Of a stretch of 60,547 nucleotides of DNA, positions 26,588-36,103 are shown piece by piece. The notes beneath the pieces were generated by a model. It saw only the letters and a list, made by a program, of their open reading frames with translations, did not search any database and was not told the origin of the DNA. A program made the translations under genes and the position numbers. The stretch's first letter is position 1, and each line of letters begins with the position of its first letter. Source of the DNA: Spartobacteria bacterium (lineage in GTDB: Bacteria; Verrucomicrobiota; Verrucomicrobiia; Chthoniobacterales; UBA6821); assembly GCA_947471565.1 (NCBI GenBank), contig CANIVT010000015.1, positions 1 to 60,547 on the forward strand. Reading direction: 5' to 3'.

Positions 26588-27943
26588 CTACTCGCCGATT
26601 GCGACAATCAGCGCCGAGGCGATTGCGTCGGCGGCGGCGTTGATGACCGCCTCGTCCGGCCCCTCGATGAGCAGGCGGACTTTGGGCTCGGTACCGGAGT
26701 ATCGGAGCAGCACGCGTCCTTTCCCTGCCAGGGCCGACTCGGTGGCCGAGACAAGATGGGCCACCTCGGGAAGGGAATCGAGGGAAGGCTTTTCCTTCAC
26801 GCGGAGGTTGCGTTGGGCCTGGGGGTATTTTTTCAGCACGCGCCGGAGTTCGCTCAGCGGCTTGCCGCTTTCGGTGATCACCCGCAGGACCTGGAGCGCG
26901 GCGAGCAATCCGTCGCCCGTGGTGCCGTGATCCCGGAAAATCAGGTGACCACTCTGCTCCCCGCCTATCGAAAAATTCCCTGCGCGCATCGCCTCGACCA
27001 CATAGCGGTCGCCCACGGCCGTGCGGAGAACCTTGCCTCCTTCAGCCGCCAAGCAGTCATCGAGGCCAAAGTTACTCATCACTGTGGCGACAAGCGTTTT
27101 GCCGGCAAGGATTCCTCGTCTCAACGCGTCCAAGGCCGTGATCGCGAGGATCTCGTCGCCGTCGACGACCTCGCCCAACTCGTCGCAGAGGACAAGGCGG
27201 TCGGCATCGCCGTCGTGTGAGAGAGCAAGGTGCGCTCCGGATTCCTTCACCAGCCGCGCAATCTCCTCGGGATGGGTGCTGCCGCAGCCGGCATTGATGT
27301 TCATCCCGTCAGGCTCCGCATGAAAGAGGACCAGTTCCGCGCCGAGGTCGCGAAGCACGGAGGGCGTCGTGCGAAATGCGGCCCCGTTGGCGCAGTCGAC
27401 GGCGATCCTCAGACCATGTAGCGACATCCCCGGAACGCTCGCCTTGGCGATGCGACCATAGCGTTCGCCGGCATCGGTGATCGTGGAGACGGTGCCGATT
27501 CCGGAGCCTTCAGGACGGATTGCATCGATTTCCGGAGTCAGGATCAGCTGTTCCAGCCGCTCCTCGATCTCGTCGGGAAGCTTGTAGCCGTCCGCGCCGA
27601 AAAGCTTGAGGCCGTTATCGGCCGCAGGGTTGTGTGAGGCCGAGATGACAATCCCGCCGTTGGCCCCGAGTTCCTTGACAAGGCAGGCGACGGCCGGCGT
27701 GGGAACCACACCGGCTAGCAGTACATCGGCGCCCGTGGAATTCAGTCCCGCCACCAGGGCGGATTCCAGCATCGGCCCGGAGAGACGCGTGTCTCGTCCG
27801 ATCACGAAGCGCGCTCGGGAAGATTCACCGCGCAGAAGATGACCAGCGGCGCGACCGAGGCGGAAGGCTATTTCGGGGGTAACCGGGTGACGGTTGGCCG
27901 TGCCGCGGATGCCGTCGGTGCCGAAGAGGATGCGCTCCGCCAT
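26588..27943 (-). CDS. glmM: Phosphoglucosamine mutase
   Basis: Converts glucosamine-6-phosphate to glucosamine-1-phosphate for peptidoglycan and LPS. The 451-residue protein starts with LFGTDGIRGTAN, has the phosphoserine S103 in VISASHNPAADNG, the Mg-binding DGDADR motif and the C-terminal phosphate loop RYSGTEPKVRLLIEG. It is the last gene of a minus-strand run hisD-folP-cdaA-short cdaR-glmM; the cdaA-cdaR-glmM order is widely conserved, and CdaA is known to be regulated through GlmM in Firmicutes. Confidence 0.96.
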   Translation of the reverse strand: MAERILFGTDGIRGTANRHPVTPEIAFRLGRAAGHLLRGESSRARFVIGRDTRLSGPMLESALVAGLNSTGADVLLAGVVPTPAVACLVKELGANGGIVISASHNPAADNGLKLFGADGYKLPDEIEERLEQLILTPEIDAIRPEGSGIGTVSTITDAGERYGRIAKASVPGMSLHGLRIAVDCANGAAFRTTPSVLRDLGAELVLFHAEPDGMNINAGCGSTHPEEIARLVKESGAHLALSHDGDADRLVLCDELGEVVDGDEILAITALDALRRGILAGKTLVATVMSNFGLDDCLAAEGGKVLRTAVGDRYVVEAMRAGNFSIGGEQSGHLIFRDHGTTGDGLLAALQVLRVITESGKPLSELRRVLKKYPQAQRNLRVKEKPSLDSLPEVAHLVSATESALAGKGRVLLRYSGTEPKVRLLIEGPDEAVINAAADAIASALIVAIGE

Positions 27944-27948
27944 GAGAG

Positions 27949-28143
27949 TTACTGCAGCTTGGGCTTTTGCGACTTGGCGCGATGGGTGTCCTTTGAGGGA
28001 GATTTCTCCTCAGGATTCGCGGCGGGCCGGTAGCCGTGATCCGGGACCGGAGCCAGGTTTTGATGAATGAGATACCAGAGCGCCCCCCCCAGAAGGAGGC
28101 AGACCAGTTTCTCCTTCCAGTTGTGAAGCAGCAGTCGGCGCAT
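27949..28143 (-). CDS. Short CdaR-like single-TM protein
   Basis: A 64-residue product beginning MRRLLLHNWKEKLVCLLL, the typical first helix of CdaR/YbbR proteins (N-terminal 'N-W..K' then one transmembrane segment, about 10-28), but with no YbbR repeat domains: the remainder is a short hydrophilic Pro/Lys-rich tail. GAGGAAAAC lies just before the ATG, a good ribosome binding site. It overlaps the 3' end of cdaA by 134 bases in another frame and ends 6 bases before glmM. It occupies the exact cdaR position in the operon, so it is read as a minimal CdaR. Confidence 0.72.
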   Translation of the reverse strand: MRRLLLHNWKEKLVCLLLGGALWYLIHQNLAPVPDHGYRPAANPEEKSPSKDTHRAKSQKPKLQ

Positions 28144-28918
28144 TGTTTTCCTCGCGGAGCAGAAGCTGGGAAAGACGCTTCCGAAACCGCTCGACGTTGA
28201 GGTTGCGCTCAATCGAGCCCGAGTGACAAATCGAAACTTGGCCGCTTTCCTCGGAGACCACGATGGCTACGGTGTCCGATTCCTCCGTGAGGCCGAGCCC
28301 GGCCCGGTGCCGGAGGCCGAGCGTCCGGTCAAGATCGTCGCGCTGCGTCAGCGGGAAGATGCAGCCCGCAGCCACGATTCGGTCGCTCGCCACGATGACG
28401 CCGCCGTCGTGAAGGACCGTCTTGGGGTGGAAAAGGGTGAGGATGAGCTCCTTGGAGAAGGTCGCGTCGAGAACCACCCCGGTCTCGGCGATCGATTCCA
28501 GGCTGATGTCGCGCTCCAGGGCAATCAGGGCCCCGAAACCCCGGCTGGAGAGATCGAAAACAGCATCCGTGATCTCCTCGATCTCCTCCTTCCGTTGAAG
28601 GGCCGTCGTGAAAAACCGGTGACTGCCGAGTTCGTTGAGTGCGCGCCGAAGCTCCGGCTGGAAGATCACGACGAGTGCGATTGCCAGGAAGACCGTGAAA
28701 CTGCGGAGCAGCCATCCCAGCACTGCCAGATCGAGGATCTGGGAAACAAAAGTCAGCGTGAGGAAAACAAGCGCCACGCCGATGAGAATCCGGGCGCCAT
28801 GGGTCCCTCGCAGGTAGAGGTAGAGATAGTACAGGATCGCCGCGAGGATCAGAATCTCCACCCCGGAGCTCCAGTTCTCACGAAGGAACGAGCCAATCAT
28901 GGAGAAAAACCGGCTCAT
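28010..28918 (-). CDS. cdaA: Diadenylate cyclase CdaA
   Basis: Membrane c-di-AMP synthase. The 302-residue protein has three transmembrane segments in the first 85 residues, then the DisA_N/DAC domain (about 95-245). The first active-site motif reads DGG at 171-173 (DGA in most), the second RHR at 203-205. Residues after about 258 (APTAASQLEGETGLPPSGGG) look disordered and overlap the short cdaR gene, so this tail may be shaped by the second frame. Its start overlaps the folP stop by four bases (ATGA), which implies translational coupling. Confidence 0.92.
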   Translation of the reverse strand: MSRFFSMIGSFLRENWSSGVEILILAAILYYLYLYLRGTHGARILIGVALVFLTLTFVSQILDLAVLGWLLRSFTVFLAIALVVIFQPELRRALNELGSHRFFTTALQRKEEIEEITDAVFDLSSRGFGALIALERDISLESIAETGVVLDATFSKELILTLFHPKTVLHDGGVIVASDRIVAAGCIFPLTQRDDLDRTLGLRHRAGLGLTEESDTVAIVVSEESGQVSICHSGSIERNLNVERFRKRLSQLLLREENNAPTAASQLEGETGLPPSGGGALVSHSSKPGSGPGSRLPARRES

Positions 28919-29775
28919 GGCTGTACCTCCCCATGAATCATTGCCTCAGCGGTCCTGAGAGCCATCCGGTGCGGCGCGGGGTCATGCACTCGGAAAAGCA
29001 TGGCCCCAAGTCGTCTGGCCAGAGCGGTCATCGCTGTGCCGGCCTGAAGGCGGGCAGCGAAATCGGGTGAAGCCGACTCCCCGGCAATTGTCCCTAGGAA
29101 TGACTTTCGGGAATGACCGATCAGAATCGGGGAGTCGAGAGAGAGAAGCTCGGGAATCCGGCGAAGCAAGGCGAGATTGTGGGACAGCGACTTTCCGAAG
29201 CCGAGGCCGGGATCAAGGATGAGGGCGTCCGGTTGCACGCCGCACGCTACCGCCGCCGACCGCCGCTCCGAAAGGAATTTCGACACCGCCCCGACGACAT
29301 CGCCCCCTTCGTAGGAGGGATTTTGCTGCATCGTGATGGGGATGCCCTGCATGTGCATGAGGATCAGGCCGACACCCGAGGAAGCGGCAAGCTTGCCCAT
29401 GGAGGGATCGGAGAGTCCGCTCACGTCATTGATGATGTCGGCGCCGGCGGTGAGTGCTGCCTCGGCAACGACAGCCTTCGAGGTGTCCACCGAGATCGGC
29501 GCATCGGTAGAGTCACGGAGTGCCTTGACCACGGGAATCACGCGTCTCAATTCCTCTTCTGGCGAAACGGGCAGGGATCCGGGCCTTGTTGACTCCCCTC
29601 CGATGTCGAGCATGTCGGCTCCCTCCGAGAGCAGGCGGAGTCCAAGGATCCGTGCGGCCTCCGGATCGGAAGCCGATCCTCCATCGGAGAAGGAATCGGG
29701 AGTCACGTTGACGATCCCGAGGATCACTCCCCGCGAGGTCAGGTCGATCTCCCGCCCCCGGAAGCGCCACTTCAT
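28915..29775 (-). CDS. folP: Dihydropteroate synthase
   Basis: Condenses p-aminobenzoate with hydroxymethyl-dihydropterin diphosphate in folate synthesis; the sulfonamide target. The 286-residue TIM barrel shows GIVNVTPDSFSDGG (about 20-33), DIGGESTRPGS (about 57-67), DTSKAVVAEAAL, INDVSG and the C-terminal RVHDPAPHR. All expected motifs are intact. It is between hisD (4 bases away) and cdaA (4-base overlap) on the minus strand. folA and thyA, which also serve folate metabolism, lie about 6 kb away. Confidence 0.95.
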   Translation of the reverse strand: MKWRFRGREIDLTSRGVILGIVNVTPDSFSDGGSASDPEAARILGLRLLSEGADMLDIGGESTRPGSLPVSPEEELRRVIPVVKALRDSTDAPISVDTSKAVVAEAALTAGADIINDVSGLSDPSMGKLAASSGVGLILMHMQGIPITMQQNPSYEGGDVVGAVSKFLSERRSAAVACGVQPDALILDPGLGFGKSLSHNLALLRRIPELLSLDSPILIGHSRKSFLGTIAGESASPDFAARLQAGTAMTALARRLGAMLFRVHDPAPHRMALRTAEAMIHGEVQP

Positions 29776-29779
29776 GGGC

Positions 29780-31069
29780 TTAGGATTTCTTCACCCGCAG
29801 GGAAACGGAGCGGCCGTGCGCGTCAAGCCCCTCGACCGAGCAGAAGGATTCGATGATCGGCAGTGATTTCCCAAGCGAGGCCGCGTCGTAACGCACGAGG
29901 CTTGTGCGGCGCTGGAACTGCGAGGCGGTCAGTCCGGCGAAGGCCTTTGAGGCGCCGCCCGTCGGTAGCGTGTGACTCGGTCCCGCCAGAAAATCGCCTG
30001 CGGCAACCGGTGAAATATCCCCGAGGTAGATGGCCCCAGAGGAGGTGAGCCTCTTGGCGACTTTCTCGGGATTGCGAACGGCCAGCGAGACATGCTCGGA
30101 GGCAAAGGCATTGGCGATCTCCACTGCTTGGTCAAGGTCGTGGACATGGACGAGCACGGCATTTCCGATCGCTTTAGAAAGATACTGCGGCCGGGCGGAA
30201 AGCTTCATCTGCCGAGCAATCTCCTTTTGCACGGCGGCGAGGAGCTTCTCCGAGTCGCTGAGCAGGACAGCCACGCTGGAGGCACCGTGTTCCGACTGGG
30301 CGAGCAGGTCGGAAGCCACCCAGACGGGATTGGCTTTGGCATCCGCAATGACGAGCACCTCGCTGGGGCCGGGCAGGAGGTCGATGCCGACACGTCCGAA
30401 CACCTGGCGCTTCGCCTCGACAACATAGGAGTTGCCTGGGCCGAAGATTTTGGTGACCGGACGGATCGACTTGGTGCCGTAGGCGAGGGCGGCGACGGCC
30501 TGCCCCCCTCCGACCCGGTAAATCTCGAAAACCCCGCAGAGCGAAAGGGCCGCAAGCAGGGCCGGTGCGACCGTTCCGTCGGGGCCGGCCGGGGTGACGG
30601 CGACGATCTCGGGCACACCGGCCGCCTTCGCAAAGCCACAAGTCATGATGGCTGTGGAGACGAGCGGCGCGGTGCCTCCCGGAACATAGACGCCGACGCG
30701 GGGGAGCGGATCGAAACGTTCTCCGACAAGCGCTCCCTCGCTGTTCTTCATCGACCAGTCCTTGCTGAGGCTTTTTTTGGCAAAGGCGGTGACGTTTTTG
30801 AGTGATGCAGCGAGGGCCTTCCGGACAGCGGGGGTCAGCGAAGTGCTTGCTTTGTCGATTTCGGCAGGTGAGACCCGAAGCCTCGCCGGAGTCAGTTTCG
30901 GGCCACCGAACTTCGCCGTGTAGGAGCAGAGCGCCGCATCCCCTTTGGCGCGGATGTCGCGGATGATTCCGGCAACGGTTTCACGGACCTCGGCGGAGGG
31001 CTCCGCCTGACGGTCGAGCTTCGCGATTTCGCGGTCGAAGCCGCGGCTTTTGTGAGAAAGAAGGCGCAT
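29780..31069 (-). CDS. hisD: Histidinol dehydrogenase
   Basis: Catalyses the last two oxidations from histidinol to histidine with zinc and NAD+. The 429-residue protein carries YVPGGTAPLVSTAIM, GPGNSYVVEAKRQV, the signature SEHGASSVAVLL with a zinc-ligand His, and HTLPTGGASKAF. ATG 31069 (MRLLSHKS) is taken; an upstream start at 31105 adds twelve residues without support. Heads the hisD-folP-cdaA-cdaR-glmM run. It is separated from hisC and hisI, so histidine genes are dispersed here. Confidence 0.95.
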   Translation of the reverse strand: MRLLSHKSRGFDREIAKLDRQAEPSAEVRETVAGIIRDIRAKGDAALCSYTAKFGGPKLTPARLRVSPAEIDKASTSLTPAVRKALAASLKNVTAFAKKSLSKDWSMKNSEGALVGERFDPLPRVGVYVPGGTAPLVSTAIMTCGFAKAAGVPEIVAVTPAGPDGTVAPALLAALSLCGVFEIYRVGGGQAVAALAYGTKSIRPVTKIFGPGNSYVVEAKRQVFGRVGIDLLPGPSEVLVIADAKANPVWVASDLLAQSEHGASSVAVLLSDSEKLLAAVQKEIARQMKLSARPQYLSKAIGNAVLVHVHDLDQAVEIANAFASEHVSLAVRNPEKVAKRLTSSGAIYLGDISPVAAGDFLAGPSHTLPTGGASKAFAGLTASQFQRRTSLVRYDAASLGKSLPIIESFCSVEGLDAHGRSVSLRVKKS

Positions 31070-31114
31070 TCGATTCAGACTACCCGCAGAGGCCTTCCGG
31101 GTCAAAACCGGGCG

Positions 31115-32305
31115 TCATTTCGTGTCCCAGAACGGCCGGCCGATCCAAAACGGCGAGGCGACGCCCGAGCGGTAGGCTTCGAGCGAGCCTTTGGAAGAGT
31201 TCACCCGGAGGTTACTGTAGGAATCGTCCGCATTCTGCCAACGCTCGTGCCAGAACACAGCGGCCTTGAGACGGGGATATTTGGCGGCATTGCTCATCTC
31301 CCGGAAGGCTTCCGTGATCCATGTCCCCTTGTTCTCGCCTGGAGCGTGGGATTCCATCACGCCCCACTCTGCGAGCATCACGGGCTTGTCGGGATCGAGG
31401 GAGCACATCTCCCGGTAGGGCCATTCGAGCAGCGGCTTGAACGGGCACCATTTGTCGTCCTGCGTTCCGGCGGTTTGCTTGCCATAGACGCTCATGGCCA
31501 GCCAGTCGACATACTTGGGACCGGGGTAGTAGGAGGCTGGTTGATTCCAGGTCATGAAACCCGGAGGATCGGAGTAGTTGTTGGGCTGGAAGACCCAGAG
31601 AATGTTGGTCGCCCCGCGGGCGCGCACGCGGTCGACGACATAACGCCACGCTTTCTTGAATGTCTCCGGCCCCTGCCATGTGGAGGGATTCTTAAAGTCT
31701 CCGGAGCCGAACCAAGAGGCAGCGGCGTTTTCCTCGATGAGTCCGGCTGCCTTGAGTTGGCGGGCCTGCTTTTTGTCCTGAGGTTTATTGACCGGCATGG
31801 GATCCCGCGGCCCCTTTCCGTAATACCATCCCGACCATGGGAACCACGTGCCGTTCATCTCGCAGGCAAAGGAAACAAAAAACTGGGCCGGAACCTTTGC
31901 TGCCTCGTCTGCCCAACGGTCGATGTAGGCATCCCACTTGCCCGCGAGGATTTCCGTCAGCGAGAAACGGTCGGGCCCGCGGTTCTGGTCGAAGGGTGCA
32001 TCCCAAGGAGACCAATAGATCAGCGGCACGGCACCATAGGAGCGGACGATCCGCACCTGTTCCGAGGGGAATGACTGCCGTTCCCAAAAGGAGCCAAAGC
32101 CGACGATGGAAAGTTGCTTGCCGGTGAGTTCCTGGAACTTCTCGATGGACTCCAGCGTCACATGATCCTCGCCGTCGCTGAAGTCGCAGTAGGCCCCCGT
32201 GTAGGCGCCGATGGCGGGAACCTTCAGTGTTTCAAAGGCATGCAGGGAAACGGAGGCCGTCATCAAGGACGTCCCTGCTGTGAGGAGACACAGGAAACGG
32301 TTCAT
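31115..32305 (-). CDS. Secreted glycoside hydrolase family 26-like protein
   Basis: A 396-residue exported protein with signal peptide (about 1-23) and a TIM barrel resembling GH26 endo-beta-mannanases and related glucanases. The acid/base E149 is in FACEMNGTWFPWSG and the nucleophile E313 in VMLAEWGVMES, the two GH26 strand-end motifs; WVFQPNNYSD and WLAMSVYG are also in keeping. Its ATG overlaps the stop of the glycosyltransferase gene by four bases (ATGA), so the two are translationally coupled. The likely role is trimming or release of the polymer made by that synthase; mannan as substrate is not established. Confidence 0.8.
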   Translation of the reverse strand: MNRFLCLLTAGTSLMTASVSLHAFETLKVPAIGAYTGAYCDFSDGEDHVTLESIEKFQELTGKQLSIVGFGSFWERQSFPSEQVRIVRSYGAVPLIYWSPWDAPFDQNRGPDRFSLTEILAGKWDAYIDRWADEAAKVPAQFFVSFACEMNGTWFPWSGWYYGKGPRDPMPVNKPQDKKQARQLKAAGLIEENAAASWFGSGDFKNPSTWQGPETFKKAWRYVVDRVRARGATNILWVFQPNNYSDPPGFMTWNQPASYYPGPKYVDWLAMSVYGKQTAGTQDDKWCPFKPLLEWPYREMCSLDPDKPVMLAEWGVMESHAPGENKGTWITEAFREMSNAAKYPRLKAAVFWHERWQNADDSYSNLRVNSSKGSLEAYRSGVASPFWIGRPFWDTK

Positions 32306-35300
32306 GGGGCGACCGTCCCTTCGCGCTGTTTGATGGCGGCTGCCGTCCGTTCCAGCTTGGACCAGCGGACCCAACTTCCGCCAAGGGCTTTGAGGATGCA
32401 TTTCCAGACGACATACCCGAGCAGGGGGCGGTAGAGAAGCCTCATCGGCGCGCTCAGCCACGCGGTGCGCAGGGAGCGGCCAGCCAGCCAGAGCCCTGCG
32501 GCTGCGAGGATGGCGTCGAGAAGCAGGGAGGCCACGAAGTAGGGCCAGATGGCGATGCCGCGACCAAGCCACAAGGACCAGAGCACAAGCAGGTCGAGCA
32601 CGGGAGTGATCGCCACCACGGCGATCTGGAAGATCCAGACCGAGGGCAGCGCGAACCAACCGAGCCATCCCGATCCCTGGGCAAAGGTCAGGTCGCCGTG
32701 TTTCCAGAGGCATTGCAGCGTGCCGAAGGCCCATCGGAAGCGCTGGGAGAGGAGCGCCTTGACCGATTCCGGAGCCTCCGTGTCGGCGTAGGCCCTCGTG
32801 GCGAAGACCACCTTCCACCCCAGTCTGTGAAGCTGGAGGGTGAGGTCGGTGTCCTCGGCCAGCGTGTCATTGGTAATGGGCCCTGCCTCGTCAAGCGCTT
32901 GGCGGCGGAAAGCGCTCAACGCCCCTGGTGCGACGATGATACAGCCGAGGAAATCCTGAGCGCGGCGGTCGATCTCGAAGGCGGTCACGTATTCCAGATC
33001 CTGGAATCTGCCAAGCCATCGGCGGGTATTGCCCACACGGACATGACCGGAGACGGCGCCGACGTTGGGATCGGCAAGCGGCTCCACCAGGCTCCGGATC
33101 CCGTCCGGAGACACCATCGTGTCAGCGTCGATCATGACGATCGTGTCATGGGTTGCCGCGGAAAGCGCACGCTGGAGGGCCGAGGCCTTGCCCCCGTTGG
33201 ATTGTCGGAGGAAGAGGACGCGTGGTTCGGAGGCGGCGATGGCCTCCACGACGGCGGCTGTGCCGTCTTTGGATCCGTCATCCACGACGATGACCTGTAC
33301 CTCGGAGGGGTAATCGGAATCGAGCAGGTGCTGGATCGTGGAGGCGATCACCCTTTCCTCGTTGTAGGCCGCCAGCAGCACGCTTACGGGCGGAGTGAAA
33401 GTCTCCACAACCGGGATGGAGCGCTCACGGCGGAGATGGAGGATCGCGCAGGTGAGATGGAAGATCACCCTGCCGAGAGCCAGCAGAGTCACCACCAGAA
33501 GCAATGCCCAGGCCGTGGTTTCGAGGAAACGGAGGAAGGCGAATCCCTTGTAGACGTAGCGGGCCGCAAGAGGTTGGTTTTCCTCATTGAGCGGAGGCAT
33601 CACGGTCTCGGGGGTGAGGTCGATGATTCTGTTGAGAGGAGCGATTTCGTCACCTCGCTCGCGCAGGTAATCGATGATCCCCGGCAGGGCGGCGATGGTT
33701 TGGGATCGGTCGCCGCCTCCGTCGTGCAGGAGGATCACTGCTCCTCCCGCCGCACGCTGGGCCTTCACGCGCCGCAGGAGTGCGTCGGCGCCTGGTTTCT
33801 CCCAGTCGTCCGGGTCGATCGATTGCGTGACCGTCAGATAGCCGAGGTCGCGGGCCACGCGCAGGGCGCGCAGTTCTCCCGGTTCCACCGGGGTGCCGTC
33901 ACTGTTGTAGGGAGGCCTAAAATAGGCGGTGGAGCGTCCCGTGACCGCCTCGATGAGGCGTGTCGTGGCATTCAGCTCCAATTCGATCTGCTGATCACCG
34001 GCCTCGGCCAGATTCTGGTGGGTGTAGGAATGGTTGCCGATCTCGTGTCCCTCCCGGACGATCCGCTCTACGAGATCAGGGTAATGCTGGGCCTGCGTGC
34101 CGAGCACAAAGAAGGCGGCGGGTGCCTTTTTGTCACGGAGGATGTCGAGAATCCGCGGCGTCCACTTGGGATCGGGGCCATCATCGAAGGTCAGAGCAAC
34201 ACGATGGGGGCCTGGATCACCCTGACGGGTGATGCTCTCGGGCACAGGGAACTTCACAAACCGCTCGGTCAGATCGTTGTTCACGTCCTTGAGTTGACGG
34301 TCTCCGGGCTTTGATTCCTCGCCGACTGAAATGAAGTCACCGCTCCCGGTGGAGGCGATCTGCTCGTCGAGGGAGATCCGGGAGAGGGCCTTGAGTTCAG
34401 CCGCGCTCATCGGCTTGGCTGGATCACGCCTTAGAACATCCCAGACGGCAGGATCTTCCGAGCCAAGGCGGTTCAGAGCGATACCTCCAGGGTGGAAGGG
34501 TGCGGCGAGCCGGAGCTCGTTGGCGAGCGTGACCGCATCGAGGAACCAGACCTCGTGTTCCTGATTCTGCCCGGCACCGCCCAGATAGTTGAAATGAGGG
34601 GAGTCCTGCTCGGAATTGACGGTGGCGGGATCGACCCCGGCCGCTGCCGCACGGGCCATCACGTCGGTGAAAGCGATCTGCTCCACGGTCTTGTTATCCT
34701 TCCTCCAGTCATAGCCATAGGCACCCAAGCCGATCACCCATTGTTCGGGATCACCATAGAGCATCATCGTGCTGAGCCATCCCTGAAACCACTCGTTGCT
34801 GGCGAGCGGCCCCGGATCTTCCGGCTCCGAGTTTTCGTCGTGGAGGGTGGCGACCATCCGATCACAACATTCCGCGACAGCCTCCATGTCGAAGGCATCG
34901 AAGTCGTTGCCTGTAGGAACCGAGAACCAAAGTTGCTTGCCGGCGGCATGGAGGCGTGCGGAGAGTTCCCGGAGCAGGACGGACGTCGCGGCCTTGTTGC
35001 CCGGGTCGAGTTGACTCCACTCCACAAGCAGTCCGGCTGCGCCGGACGGAAGACGCGAGATGAGCTTGTCTAGGAAGGCCTTGCGATCCGATGGCGATCC
35101 ATTGGCCAAAGACTCGATCGCCTCGGGTTGCCATTCGTCACCGTCGAGATTCCGCAGGATCGGCAGGAAACTGATTCCCTTGCGGACACAAAGCATCCGA
35201 ACCTTCTCGGCTGCTTCCTCCTGCAACTCCGATTTCACCCCGGTGAGCGTGAACCAATCGGTTGCCACATGGGTCAGCTCCGCGGAATGCCGTTCCAGCG

Positions 35301-35637
35301 ACAAGACAGATGAGGGATCCCATTCGGAGACGAATCCGAGCACGATGTTGGCTGTCTGGGGCGCCCCGGCCTTTTTGACACCGGCTGAGGTGCGGACACG
35401 CCTCCAATCATCCTTGAGGTCGCGGCGCGGTGCATTGGCCGACGGGAGGGCCCTGAATCGGGCGTGAAAATCGCGGACGACCGAGGGGAGGTTCAACTGC
35501 GGCAGGATCAGCAGACCCGCGAAGAAGTAGGCGGTGGCGCCCAGCAGGGAAATGATCGCAACGACCGTGACTAGCTGGAGGATGCGACGACGGATGCCCT
35601 TGGGGTCGGCGAAGATACTTTGCTCAGGATCGCTCAC
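32302..35637 (-). CDS. GH18-like/polysaccharide deacetylase/GT2 fusion
   Basis: A 1111-residue, three-module enzyme. After one transmembrane helix (about 19-41) comes a GH18/YaaH-like barrel domain (about 95-400), a NodB-type carbohydrate esterase (about 485-690; TFDDGPDPKWTPRIL, HSYTHQNL, FRPPYNSDG) and, after another helix, a processive GT2 (about 755-990) with VVDDGS, MIDADTMV, EDTDL and QRFRW, followed by further membrane segments. The layout suggests synthesis, deacetylation and remodelling of a beta-linked amino-sugar polymer in one polypeptide. The start codon is GTG. The GH26 partner is coupled downstream. Product identity is inferred. Confidence 0.85.
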   Translation of the reverse strand: MSDPEQSIFADPKGIRRRILQLVTVVAIISLLGATAYFFAGLLILPQLNLPSVVRDFHARFRALPSANAPRRDLKDDWRRVRTSAGVKKAGAPQTANIVLGFVSEWDPSSVLSLERHSAELTHVATDWFTLTGVKSELQEEAAEKVRMLCVRKGISFLPILRNLDGDEWQPEAIESLANGSPSDRKAFLDKLISRLPSGAAGLLVEWSQLDPGNKAATSVLLRELSARLHAAGKQLWFSVPTGNDFDAFDMEAVAECCDRMVATLHDENSEPEDPGPLASNEWFQGWLSTMMLYGDPEQWVIGLGAYGYDWRKDNKTVEQIAFTDVMARAAAAGVDPATVNSEQDSPHFNYLGGAGQNQEHEVWFLDAVTLANELRLAAPFHPGGIALNRLGSEDPAVWDVLRRDPAKPMSAAELKALSRISLDEQIASTGSGDFISVGEESKPGDRQLKDVNNDLTERFVKFPVPESITRQGDPGPHRVALTFDDGPDPKWTPRILDILRDKKAPAAFFVLGTQAQHYPDLVERIVREGHEIGNHSYTHQNLAEAGDQQIELELNATTRLIEAVTGRSTAYFRPPYNSDGTPVEPGELRALRVARDLGYLTVTQSIDPDDWEKPGADALLRRVKAQRAAGGAVILLHDGGGDRSQTIAALPGIIDYLRERGDEIAPLNRIIDLTPETVMPPLNEENQPLAARYVYKGFAFLRFLETTAWALLLVVTLLALGRVIFHLTCAILHLRRERSIPVVETFTPPVSVLLAAYNEERVIASTIQHLLDSDYPSEVQVIVVDDGSKDGTAAVVEAIAASEPRVLFLRQSNGGKASALQRALSAATHDTIVMIDADTMVSPDGIRSLVEPLADPNVGAVSGHVRVGNTRRWLGRFQDLEYVTAFEIDRRAQDFLGCIIVAPGALSAFRRQALDEAGPITNDTLAEDTDLTLQLHRLGWKVVFATRAYADTEAPESVKALLSQRFRWAFGTLQCLWKHGDLTFAQGSGWLGWFALPSVWIFQIAVVAITPVLDLLVLWSLWLGRGIAIWPYFVASLLLDAILAAAGLWLAGRSLRTAWLSAPMRLLYRPLLGYVVWKCILKALGGSWVRWSKLERTAAAIKQREGTVAP

Positions 35638-35691
35638 GGGTGTTTGAGGAGGGCTCGGGATTTTGGCGGATAGCTGTGTTGGCCTGCGGTC

Positions 35692-35710
35692 GCCGTAGGA
35701 TTACTACGGC
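35692..35710. other. Hairpin GCCGTAG-GATTA-CTACGGC
   Basis: A perfect seven-base-pair stem with a five-base loop, set within a longer imperfect GGC/GCC-flanked region, in the leader of the polysaccharide synthase gene and 55 bases before its GTG. It might be a regulatory hairpin of that transcript or the terminator of the AT-rich ORF to its right. No U-run follows on the minus strand. Confidence 0.4.
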
Positions 35711-35751
35711 TTCCCTTGGCCGCCTTGCTCTCCATCCAAACTTCCAAGCCA

Positions 35752-36042
35752 TTAAATACCGTTTTTATGGAGGCGCTTTGCTTTGATGATGCGGAAGGAG
35801 CCAATCAAAACCGGGAACACTAGAATAGGCATGCACACCACCAAATTGAGGTAGAAAGCGGAGTGACTTAGATGGCTATTGAAAAGAATCCAGATTGAAA
35901 CTACCCCGAACCCAATAATCCCATACAGACAGCTTTTTAGGTGGCTAAGACGGCAAGTAGATAAATACCAAAGCCCAGAAACAAGGATTCCAAGATAAAC
36001 AATGCTAGGCAGTAAAACCAACCAGGTGGAAGTGACTTGCAT
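35752..36042 (-). CDS. AT-rich small membrane protein, unknown
   Basis: A 96-residue ORF with three hydrophobic segments (about 6-26, 35-54, 62-83) and a basic end (KAKRLHKNG). No family is recognised. Codon usage is clearly AT-richer than in neighbouring genes (many aaa, att, ttt, aat codons), and the AT-rich tract spans roughly 35740-36130, suggesting recent acquisition. No SD is visible before the ATG. It sits between the polysaccharide operon and folA on the same strand; whether it is expressed cannot be judged. Confidence 0.45.
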   Translation of the reverse strand: MQVTSTWLVLLPSIVYLGILVSGLWYLSTCRLSHLKSCLYGIIGFGVVSIWILFNSHLSHSAFYLNLVVCMPILVFPVLIGSFRIIKAKRLHKNGI

Positions 36043-36103
36043 GGCAACAAATGTCTAAAGGCATCTTTCTAAACTTAAAAGTTAATACCCATGCACATCG
36101 GAA

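Follow-up and report, generated by a model that had tools for sequence, protein, structure and literature searches.

Organization of the locus

The window (the whole stretch of 60,547 nucleotides that was analysed, from a Spartobacteria bacterium) carries on its minus strand a gene for a large fused synthase, followed directly by a gene for a GH26-fold enzyme (Table 1). Both open reading frames were present as the sequence-only reading had claimed, and Pfam and fold matches agreed that a GH18-like domain, a NodB deacetylase and a glycosyltransferase are joined in one polypeptide. The overlap it had noted between the synthase stop and the start of an apparently exported GH26-like gene was also borne out, as the synthase TGA (32304-32302) and the ATG of the GH26 gene (32305-32303) share an ATGA.

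Table 1. Features of the synthase/GH26 gene pair (positions in the window; residues are those of the encoded proteins)
Feature	Position	Strand	Details
Fused synthase	32302..35637	-	1111 aa, GTG start; anchor, GH18-like, NodB/CE4, GT2, C-terminal membrane helices
N-terminal hydrophobic helix of synthase, predicted membrane anchor	35506..35580	-	about residues 20-44; hydropathy
GH18-like domain of synthase	34438..35340	-	residues 100-400; S208 at catalytic Glu position, H266 at Tyr position
NodB/CE4 deacetylase domain of synthase	33622..34218	-	residues 474-672; five of five motifs
Hydrophobic helix of synthase between predicted periplasmic part and GT2	33448..33504	-	residues 712-730
GT2 domain of synthase	32722..33393	-	residues 749-972; DDGS, DAD, AED, QRFRW motifs
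ATGA overlap, synthase stop/GH26 start	32302..32305	-	sequence
GH26-fold enzyme	31115..32305	-	396 aa; acid/base E149, nucleophile E313, clade signature WHERW.N at 352-358
Signal-peptide-like N-terminus of GH26	32237..32305	-	residues 1-23, judged by eye

The pair is followed on the same strand, at 26588-31105, by hisD, folP, cdaA (diadenylate cyclase) and glmM, and genes that resemble hisD-folP-cdaA-glmM by eye recur in 11-12 verrucomicrobial loci. GlmM feeds UDP-GlcNAc synthesis, although folP, cdaA and glmM are commonly arranged together. On the other side, 466 bases of low GC (0.46) at 35638-36103 separate the synthase from a gene that looks DHFR-like by eye. Judged in the same way, the 96-aa ORF located there (36042-35752) shows three hydrophobic stretches. 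We considered this membrane ORF as a PgaD/IcaD-like partner and rejected it, since its only match among the loci compared was the window's own copy (L001). No outer-membrane exporter was seen near the pair, and PADLOC gave no matches.

Distribution of the pair

A search for the same two genes in other genomes had been named as a test, and the pair does recur. Among 387 genomes of the window's phylum (the window's own genome included; fusion threshold E<=1e-60) the fusion was present in 8, the same 8 had a close GH26, and the two genes were adjacent in 7. Of these 7, G257 has two tandem pairs and G366 has its synthase cut by the contig end; in G280 the synthase and GH26 are unlinked. Seven further genomes of the 387 had only remote GH26 relatives (best 1.5e-14). 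In the phylum of Desulfobulbus elongatus, 13 of 345 genomes carried the fusion and all 13 had a close GH26 (E<=1e-40), which was adjacent in 12 and not in G645; 19 of the 332 fusion-less genomes of this phylum gave GH26 matches at 1e-10 or better (best 3e-38 and 7e-31). We found no GH26 at E<1e-40 in the fusion-less genomes of either survey (387 and 345 genomes). Fisher tests of the co-occurrence, with relatedness ignored, gave 8.6e-17 and 8.0e-24.

We further scanned 84,980 species (one genome per species) with the GH26 alignment and obtained 387 relatives, of which the best 80 were used for the locus counts. By their titles, these 80 were mostly Spartobacteria/Chthoniobacterales and other Verrucomicrobia, with some Methylacidiphilum and with desulfobacterial or 'deltaproteobacterial' bins. 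A synthase lay upstream on the same strand in 64 of these best 80 of 387 loci, mostly close by (the gaps being larger in L089, L120 and L136), and, counting second copies, 34 of 68 GH26 genes have a possible start within an overlap of 4 bases or 1 base. The 16 loci that lack an upstream synthase comprise six with less than 1.3 kb of upstream sequence and ten with at least 2.4 kb. Eight of these ten genomes carry the fusion elsewhere (L073, L105, L076, L117, L126, L133, L077 and, as a broken copy, L130), while the genomes of L072 and L134, which have the GH26, showed no synthase. These surveys establish the pair as a real two-gene module that is kept together in distant bacterial groups, and not a chance arrangement.

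We looked for a third conserved operon gene and discarded the idea, as the widest cluster beyond the pair covered 16 of the 80 loci and its example was an ORF opposite the pair. Two smaller clusters spanned both groups as labelled by us, the first with 8 loci (5 desulfobacterial, 3 verrucomicrobial) and the second with 7 (6 and 1, respectively). Since no further gene recurred widely, the module was taken as two genes.

Several loci depart from the simple layout. Three (L101, L115 and L124) have a tandem pair of GH26 genes behind a single synthase, and L028 (G322), from a genome that lacks the fusion, is a short remnant of a GH26 gene interrupted by an in-frame stop. A remoter GH26-like type, with Glu for Arg and Thr or Pro for His, occurs in L042, L043, L047, L117 and L182; four of these five show a WWNE.W.N signature, and the first four come from genomes that also carry the pair's GH26.

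In the open-access literature we found no description of the pair (the coverage lacks most subscription journals), and phage records gave only partial matches, none of them over more than 80% of the query.

The deacetylase and glycosyltransferase domains of the synthase

The two domains were recognised by Pfam with Polysacc_deac_1 at 6.7e-36 (residues 474-600) and Glyco_tranf_2_3 at 4.5e-37 (residues 749-972). CE4 domains of the NodB homology type have five motifs and a DHH metal triad, and the window synthase shows TFDDG, HSYTH, RPPY, DPDDW and LHD. These motifs were retained in 60 of 60 GH26-partnered fusions, with small changes only (SFDDG in 5, RPPF in 7, MHD in 7 and one DY for DW). The GT2 motifs DAD, AED and QRxRW were found in 59 of 59 readable partnered fusions, and DDGS in 55, with NDGS in the other 4. 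The L085 synthase, which is split in two frames, was counted for GH18 and CE4, appears as gaps in the GT2 counts, and was excluded from the tree and the change counts. Twenty-one additional rows (SG_), mostly frames of the wrong strand, do not enter any of the counts.

A membrane helix separates CE4 from GT2 in the chain, which is the arrangement of MatB-type CE4-GT2 proteins. From the order of domains and helices, we infer that the GH18-like and CE4 domains lie outside the membrane and the GT2 domain inside.

The GH18-like domain of the window keeps its predicted fold and lacks the catalytic residues

The Pfam match of Glyco_hydro_18 (residues 100-324) was 9.5e-5 and 22.6 bits, under the cut-off of 29.6, but the relationship to GH18 was firm by sequence against PDB 5jh8 (1.4e-20). 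The predicted model of synthase residues 90-690 had a pLDDT of 90.3, and its GH18-like part aligned with 5jh8, a bacterial chitinase, with Z 33.9 and an rmsd of 2.2 over 302 residues. The predicted model thus firmly supports a GH18 barrel fold in the synthase.

Active GH18 enzymes have DxxDxDxE with the catalytic Glu, and the Tyr of a YD motif. In the alignment to 5jh8, the window's domain has S208 in place of the catalytic Glu and H266 in place of the supporting Tyr, and so lacks the residues of an active GH18. The claim of three enzymes on one polypeptide therefore stands for the deacetylase, whose motifs are present, and fails for the GH18-like domain; the check for missing catalytic residues that the sequence-only reading had proposed came out the same way, positive for the GH18-like domain and negative for the deacetylase.

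When we examined 60 GH26-partnered fusions, we observed that the catalytic position was Glu in 26, Gln in 16, Ser in 10, Gly in 4, Asn in 2, Thr in 1 and Asp in 1, and the Tyr position was Tyr in 20, His in 25, Phe in 10 and others in 5. The loss is not universal in these aligned sequences, since 26 of 60 keep the Glu and 20 of 60 the Tyr; in the window's clade, the Glu was absent in 12 of 12 rows. Glu and Tyr were found together in only 5 of the 60, as against 6 of 6 fusions without a GH26 on their plasmid. On a tree of 69 rows we counted at least 12 changes at the Glu and 9 at the Tyr, and none at ten CE4/GT2 positions picked by us for comparison.

Three residues, H123, W237 and W287, never varied among the 60 partnered fusions, and the ten remaining fusions differed from them at these positions. 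This pattern points to a new role of the domain rather than plain decay, and a well-folding barrel with clade-specific invariant residues suggests that the domain has been retained for something. The fold matches of the GH18-like model include the chitinase-like proteins YKL-39, SI-CLP and AgBR1. These are non-hydrolytic GH18 lectins, and they offer a precedent for a binding role. The lower mean identity of the GH18-like domain was dropped as an argument, as it is also below that of CE4 and GT2 in the unpartnered fusions.

The GH26-fold enzyme lacks the usual Arg and His of subsite -1

The second protein belongs to GH26 by both profile and fold. Glyco_hydro_26 gave 34.7 bits (cut-off 20.2), and the model (pLDDT 80.7) was nearest to the CtLic26A lichenase (PDB 2vi0; Z 33.8, rmsd 1.8 over 270 residues, 34% identity), with which Foldseek agreed. 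Other GH26 mannanases and xylanases came next at Z 22-27, and structure ranks 1-36 were all GH26 chains or their carriers except rank 27 (an engineered protein); rank 7 was Endoglucanase H. The N-terminus looks exported by eye, although a 19-residue hydropathy scan flagged no segment, and a loose pattern found a lipobox in 39 of 97 GH26 relatives.

Both catalytic Glu residues (E149 and E313) occur in every one of the 98 close rows, which were cut at a score of 300 and comprise 97 distinct sequences, the window's own gene among them. PMC6556568 describes an Arg and the His of an HE motif that are conserved at subsite -1 in GH26 mannanases; the His is described there as lacking from the xylanase branch and from a further branch whose function is unknown. 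By alignment, CtLic26A has both residues. In none of the 98 close rows did we find the Arg four residues before the acid/base (Ser 53, Ala 34, Val 8, Thr 3) or the His directly before it (Leu 33, Asn 21, Cys 20, Val 16, Ile 5, Asp 2, Pro 1), whereas 30 remoter GH26 rows had the Arg in 20 and the His in 16. The clade instead has a signature of its own, WHERW.N, each named position of which was found in at least 95 of 99 close rows. So the catalytic machinery appears to be kept and the contact with the -1 sugar rebuilt in this clade.

As the canonical Arg and His are absent, we call the protein a GH26-fold enzyme of a divergent subfamily and not a mannanase; the family name does not predict its substrate and gives no reason to expect mannose or mixed glucan. 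The mannose-type or beta-glucan links that the sequence-only reading had drawn from the GH26 partner, and with them any mannan or lichenan links read from the name, were abandoned on this count of 0 in 98.

In other families of clan GH-A, the residue before the acid/base contacts the 2-hydroxyl. The change at this position would fit a 2-amino or 2-acetamido sugar. We know of no GH26 enzyme active on amino sugars. Neither the 50 matches listed by Foldseek nor the 50 listed by VIA-align included a chitosanase, which is not evidence of absence.

Fusions with other partners

Plasmids yielded 22 fusion records (H1-H22), 13 from outside the Rhodobacterales (6 examined, among them one of eight alike Sphingobium records) and 9 from the Rhodobacterales (4 examined). 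Seven plasmid records had a GH26 match, and none of these was among the 22. The six non-Rhodobacterales fusions (four sphingomonads, Deinococcus and Prevotella; two, from Novosphingobium, unannotated) have no GH26 on the plasmid, and they are the six that all keep the GH18 Glu and Tyr, the plasmids alone being covered by this count. In Sphingomonas and Sphingobium (L139, L143), the fusion lies beside a VirJ-like lysyl-phosphatidylglycerol hydrolase, MprF/LPG-synthase genes and a two-component system.

On the four Rhodobacterales plasmids (L142, L200, L201, L202) the fusion is followed by a DUF3131 gene, once with a 4-base overlap, and the GH18 Glu was kept in 0 of 4. DUF3131, for which a literature listing gave no function, may be a third hydrolase partner.

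In a tree of CE4 plus GT2, all 59 GH26-partnered rows fell on one side of a branch with 100/100 support, so that a single gain of GH26 is enough to explain them. The branch that leads to the window's clade is long (0.83). The tree was rooted at its midpoint, the deepest fork in it is weak, and long-branch warnings were issued (L140, L141 and L201 among them). Its phylum labels are the submitters' titles, with 'Deltaproteobacteria' mapped to Myxococcota, and L059, titled Proteobacteria, falls within the window's clade.

Relation to known systems

The accounts compared here are those in the available parts of the cited papers. The closest likeness is to Streptomyces MatB (MatAB), which makes PNAG as judged by antibody and dispersin B, and which has an extracellular CE4 and an intracellular GT2 on one chain with a membrane helix between (PMC5972031). 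Unlike the window synthase, MatB is described there with two domains only and no GH18-like domain, and no GH26 partner is mentioned in that part of the paper. A Streptomyces plasmid protein aligned to synthase residues 480-1097 at 39.6%.

PgaABCD, with the CE4-GH153 protein PgaB (PMC5933820), shares a PgaC-like GT2, deacetylation by a CE4 and a barrel hydrolase acting on the deacetylated chain. Here, by contrast, CE4 and GT2 share one chain, the barrel fused to them is GH18-like without the catalytic Glu, cutting would fall to a separate GH26-fold protein, and no PgaA passes the cut-off. The best PgaA (TIGR03939) match in the window's genome, which is 97% complete, was 21 bits against a cut-off of 366.65. 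Cutting by PgaB of PNAG made in situ required an active deacetylase domain. Deacetylase-GT fusions in operons without detectable pgaA and pgaD have already been met among divergent pgaB clades, for which other export routes were suggested (PMC7112194); the main text of that paper has 0 occurrences each of GH18 and GH26.

For the hydrolase, CtLic26A is nearest in fold and sequence, and the regions of its acid/base Glu and nucleophile align; the window's clade differs in Ser, Ala, Val or Thr for the Arg, mostly Leu, Asn, Cys or Val for the His, and the WHERW.N signature. CcsZ, a GH5 enzyme of clostridial cellulose synthase (PMC7710045), is likewise a hydrolase encoded together with its synthase, and its specificity tells which polymer is made; both GH5 and GH26 belong to clan GH-A (PMC5217682). 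There the pairing is GH5 with cellulose, and here a GH26-fold protein with what is probably an amino-sugar chain. WpsE of the wps-1 cluster of Actinoplanes missouriensis (PMC13390465) also places a GH26-family gene inside an exopolysaccharide cluster, but that cluster is of the Wzx/Wzy type with no fused synthase described, and the likeness is by description only.

Proposed function and alternatives

We favour the reading that the fusion is a MatB/PgaC-like synthase-deacetylase of a GlcNAc polymer, in which a coupled GH26 with a new specificity has taken over trimming from the fused GH18, and put its probability at roughly 0.58. The nearest NCBI family of the GT2 is PgaC_IcaA (TIGR03937; 192 bits, below the cut-off of 422.3), and with the precedent of MatB this suggests a GlcNAc polymer as the product. 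That the locus is a compact system for an amino-sugar exopolysaccharide, as first proposed, is therefore probable given the conserved pair, the PgaC_IcaA likeness of the GT2 and the PNAG made by MatB. A beta-1,6 linkage does not follow from these comparisons, as PgaC_IcaA and NodB both score under their NCBI cut-offs.

The pair would then form one minimal synthase-dependent exopolysaccharide module. Judging from its family and motifs, the GT2 would polymerise UDP-GlcNAc at the inner membrane face and extrude the chain, and the tethered CE4 on the outer face, which has the motifs, would remove some of the acetyl groups. In the window's lineage the GH18-like domain would no longer cleave, and may hold or guide the chain. 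The exported GH26 would make retaining endo cuts in the partly deacetylated chain; such cuts may set the chain length or clear the exit, as PgaB GH153, BcsZ or CcsZ do elsewhere. A separate GH26, its -1 subsite rebuilt, would thus have taken on the hydrolase function of the fused GH18.

An unlikely alternative is that the product is a beta-1,4 chain resembling chitosan, or else a short oligosaccharide, made in the manner of NodC/NodB and cut by a chitosanase-like GH26. It would agree with the best CE4 equivalog, which is NodB (157 bits), and with the solved neighbours of the CE4 domain, which are mostly chitin, peptidoglycan or xylan deacetylases (CE4 deacetylases were also matched by Foldseek). 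The GT2, however, scores 192 bits with PgaC_IcaA and only 111 with NodC. The CE4 of MatB, moreover, has similar nearest characterised relatives (PgdA, chitin deacetylase and NodB) and yet the product is PNAG (PMC5972031).

Less probable still is a mixed polymer of amino sugar with mannose or beta-1,3/1,4-glucose, in which the GH26 recognises the neutral links. The GH26 fold, with a lichenase as its nearest solved structure, would suit such a polymer, and the specificity of a GT2 cannot be read from its motifs alone. Against it, the -1 Arg and His, seen in that lichenase and in many of the remoter rows, are gone from the entire close clade; each module has a single GT2, nearest to PgaC_IcaA; and a CE4 domain requires acetamido or acetyl groups. 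That the GH26 is co-transcribed with the synthase and yet acts on some other glycan, of the wall or of the environment, seems very improbable, for although it does not adjoin the synthase in 10 of 74 loci with sufficient upstream sequence (from the best 80 of 387), all 21 fusion genomes of the two surveys have a close GH26, no genome without the fusion has one, and in eight of the ten unlinked cases a synthase is present elsewhere in the genome.

Beyond the favoured reading of a GlcNAc-polymer synthase-deacetylase with a coupled GH26, we tentatively consider a wider one, which we would not rate as high as even: that this is a distinct exopolysaccharide machine, its GH18 turned into a binding domain and its rebuilt GH26 into the dedicated hydrolase of a partly deacetylated amino-sugar polymer, with hydrolases as exchangeable cassettes on one synthase chassis. 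On this view the GH18 stays intact when alone and degenerates beside GH26 and beside DUF3131. To our knowledge, hydrolysis of an amino-sugar polymer would be the first such activity in GH26.

The pair offers a two-gene, easily cloned exopolysaccharide module common to verrucomicrobial and desulfobacterial lineages, and it points to a function for a branch of GH26 whose members might be annotated as mannanases. It also provides a natural test of why synthase systems retain a hydrolase, since the same chassis is found with a fused hydrolase, with an exchanged one and perhaps with a third kind of partner.
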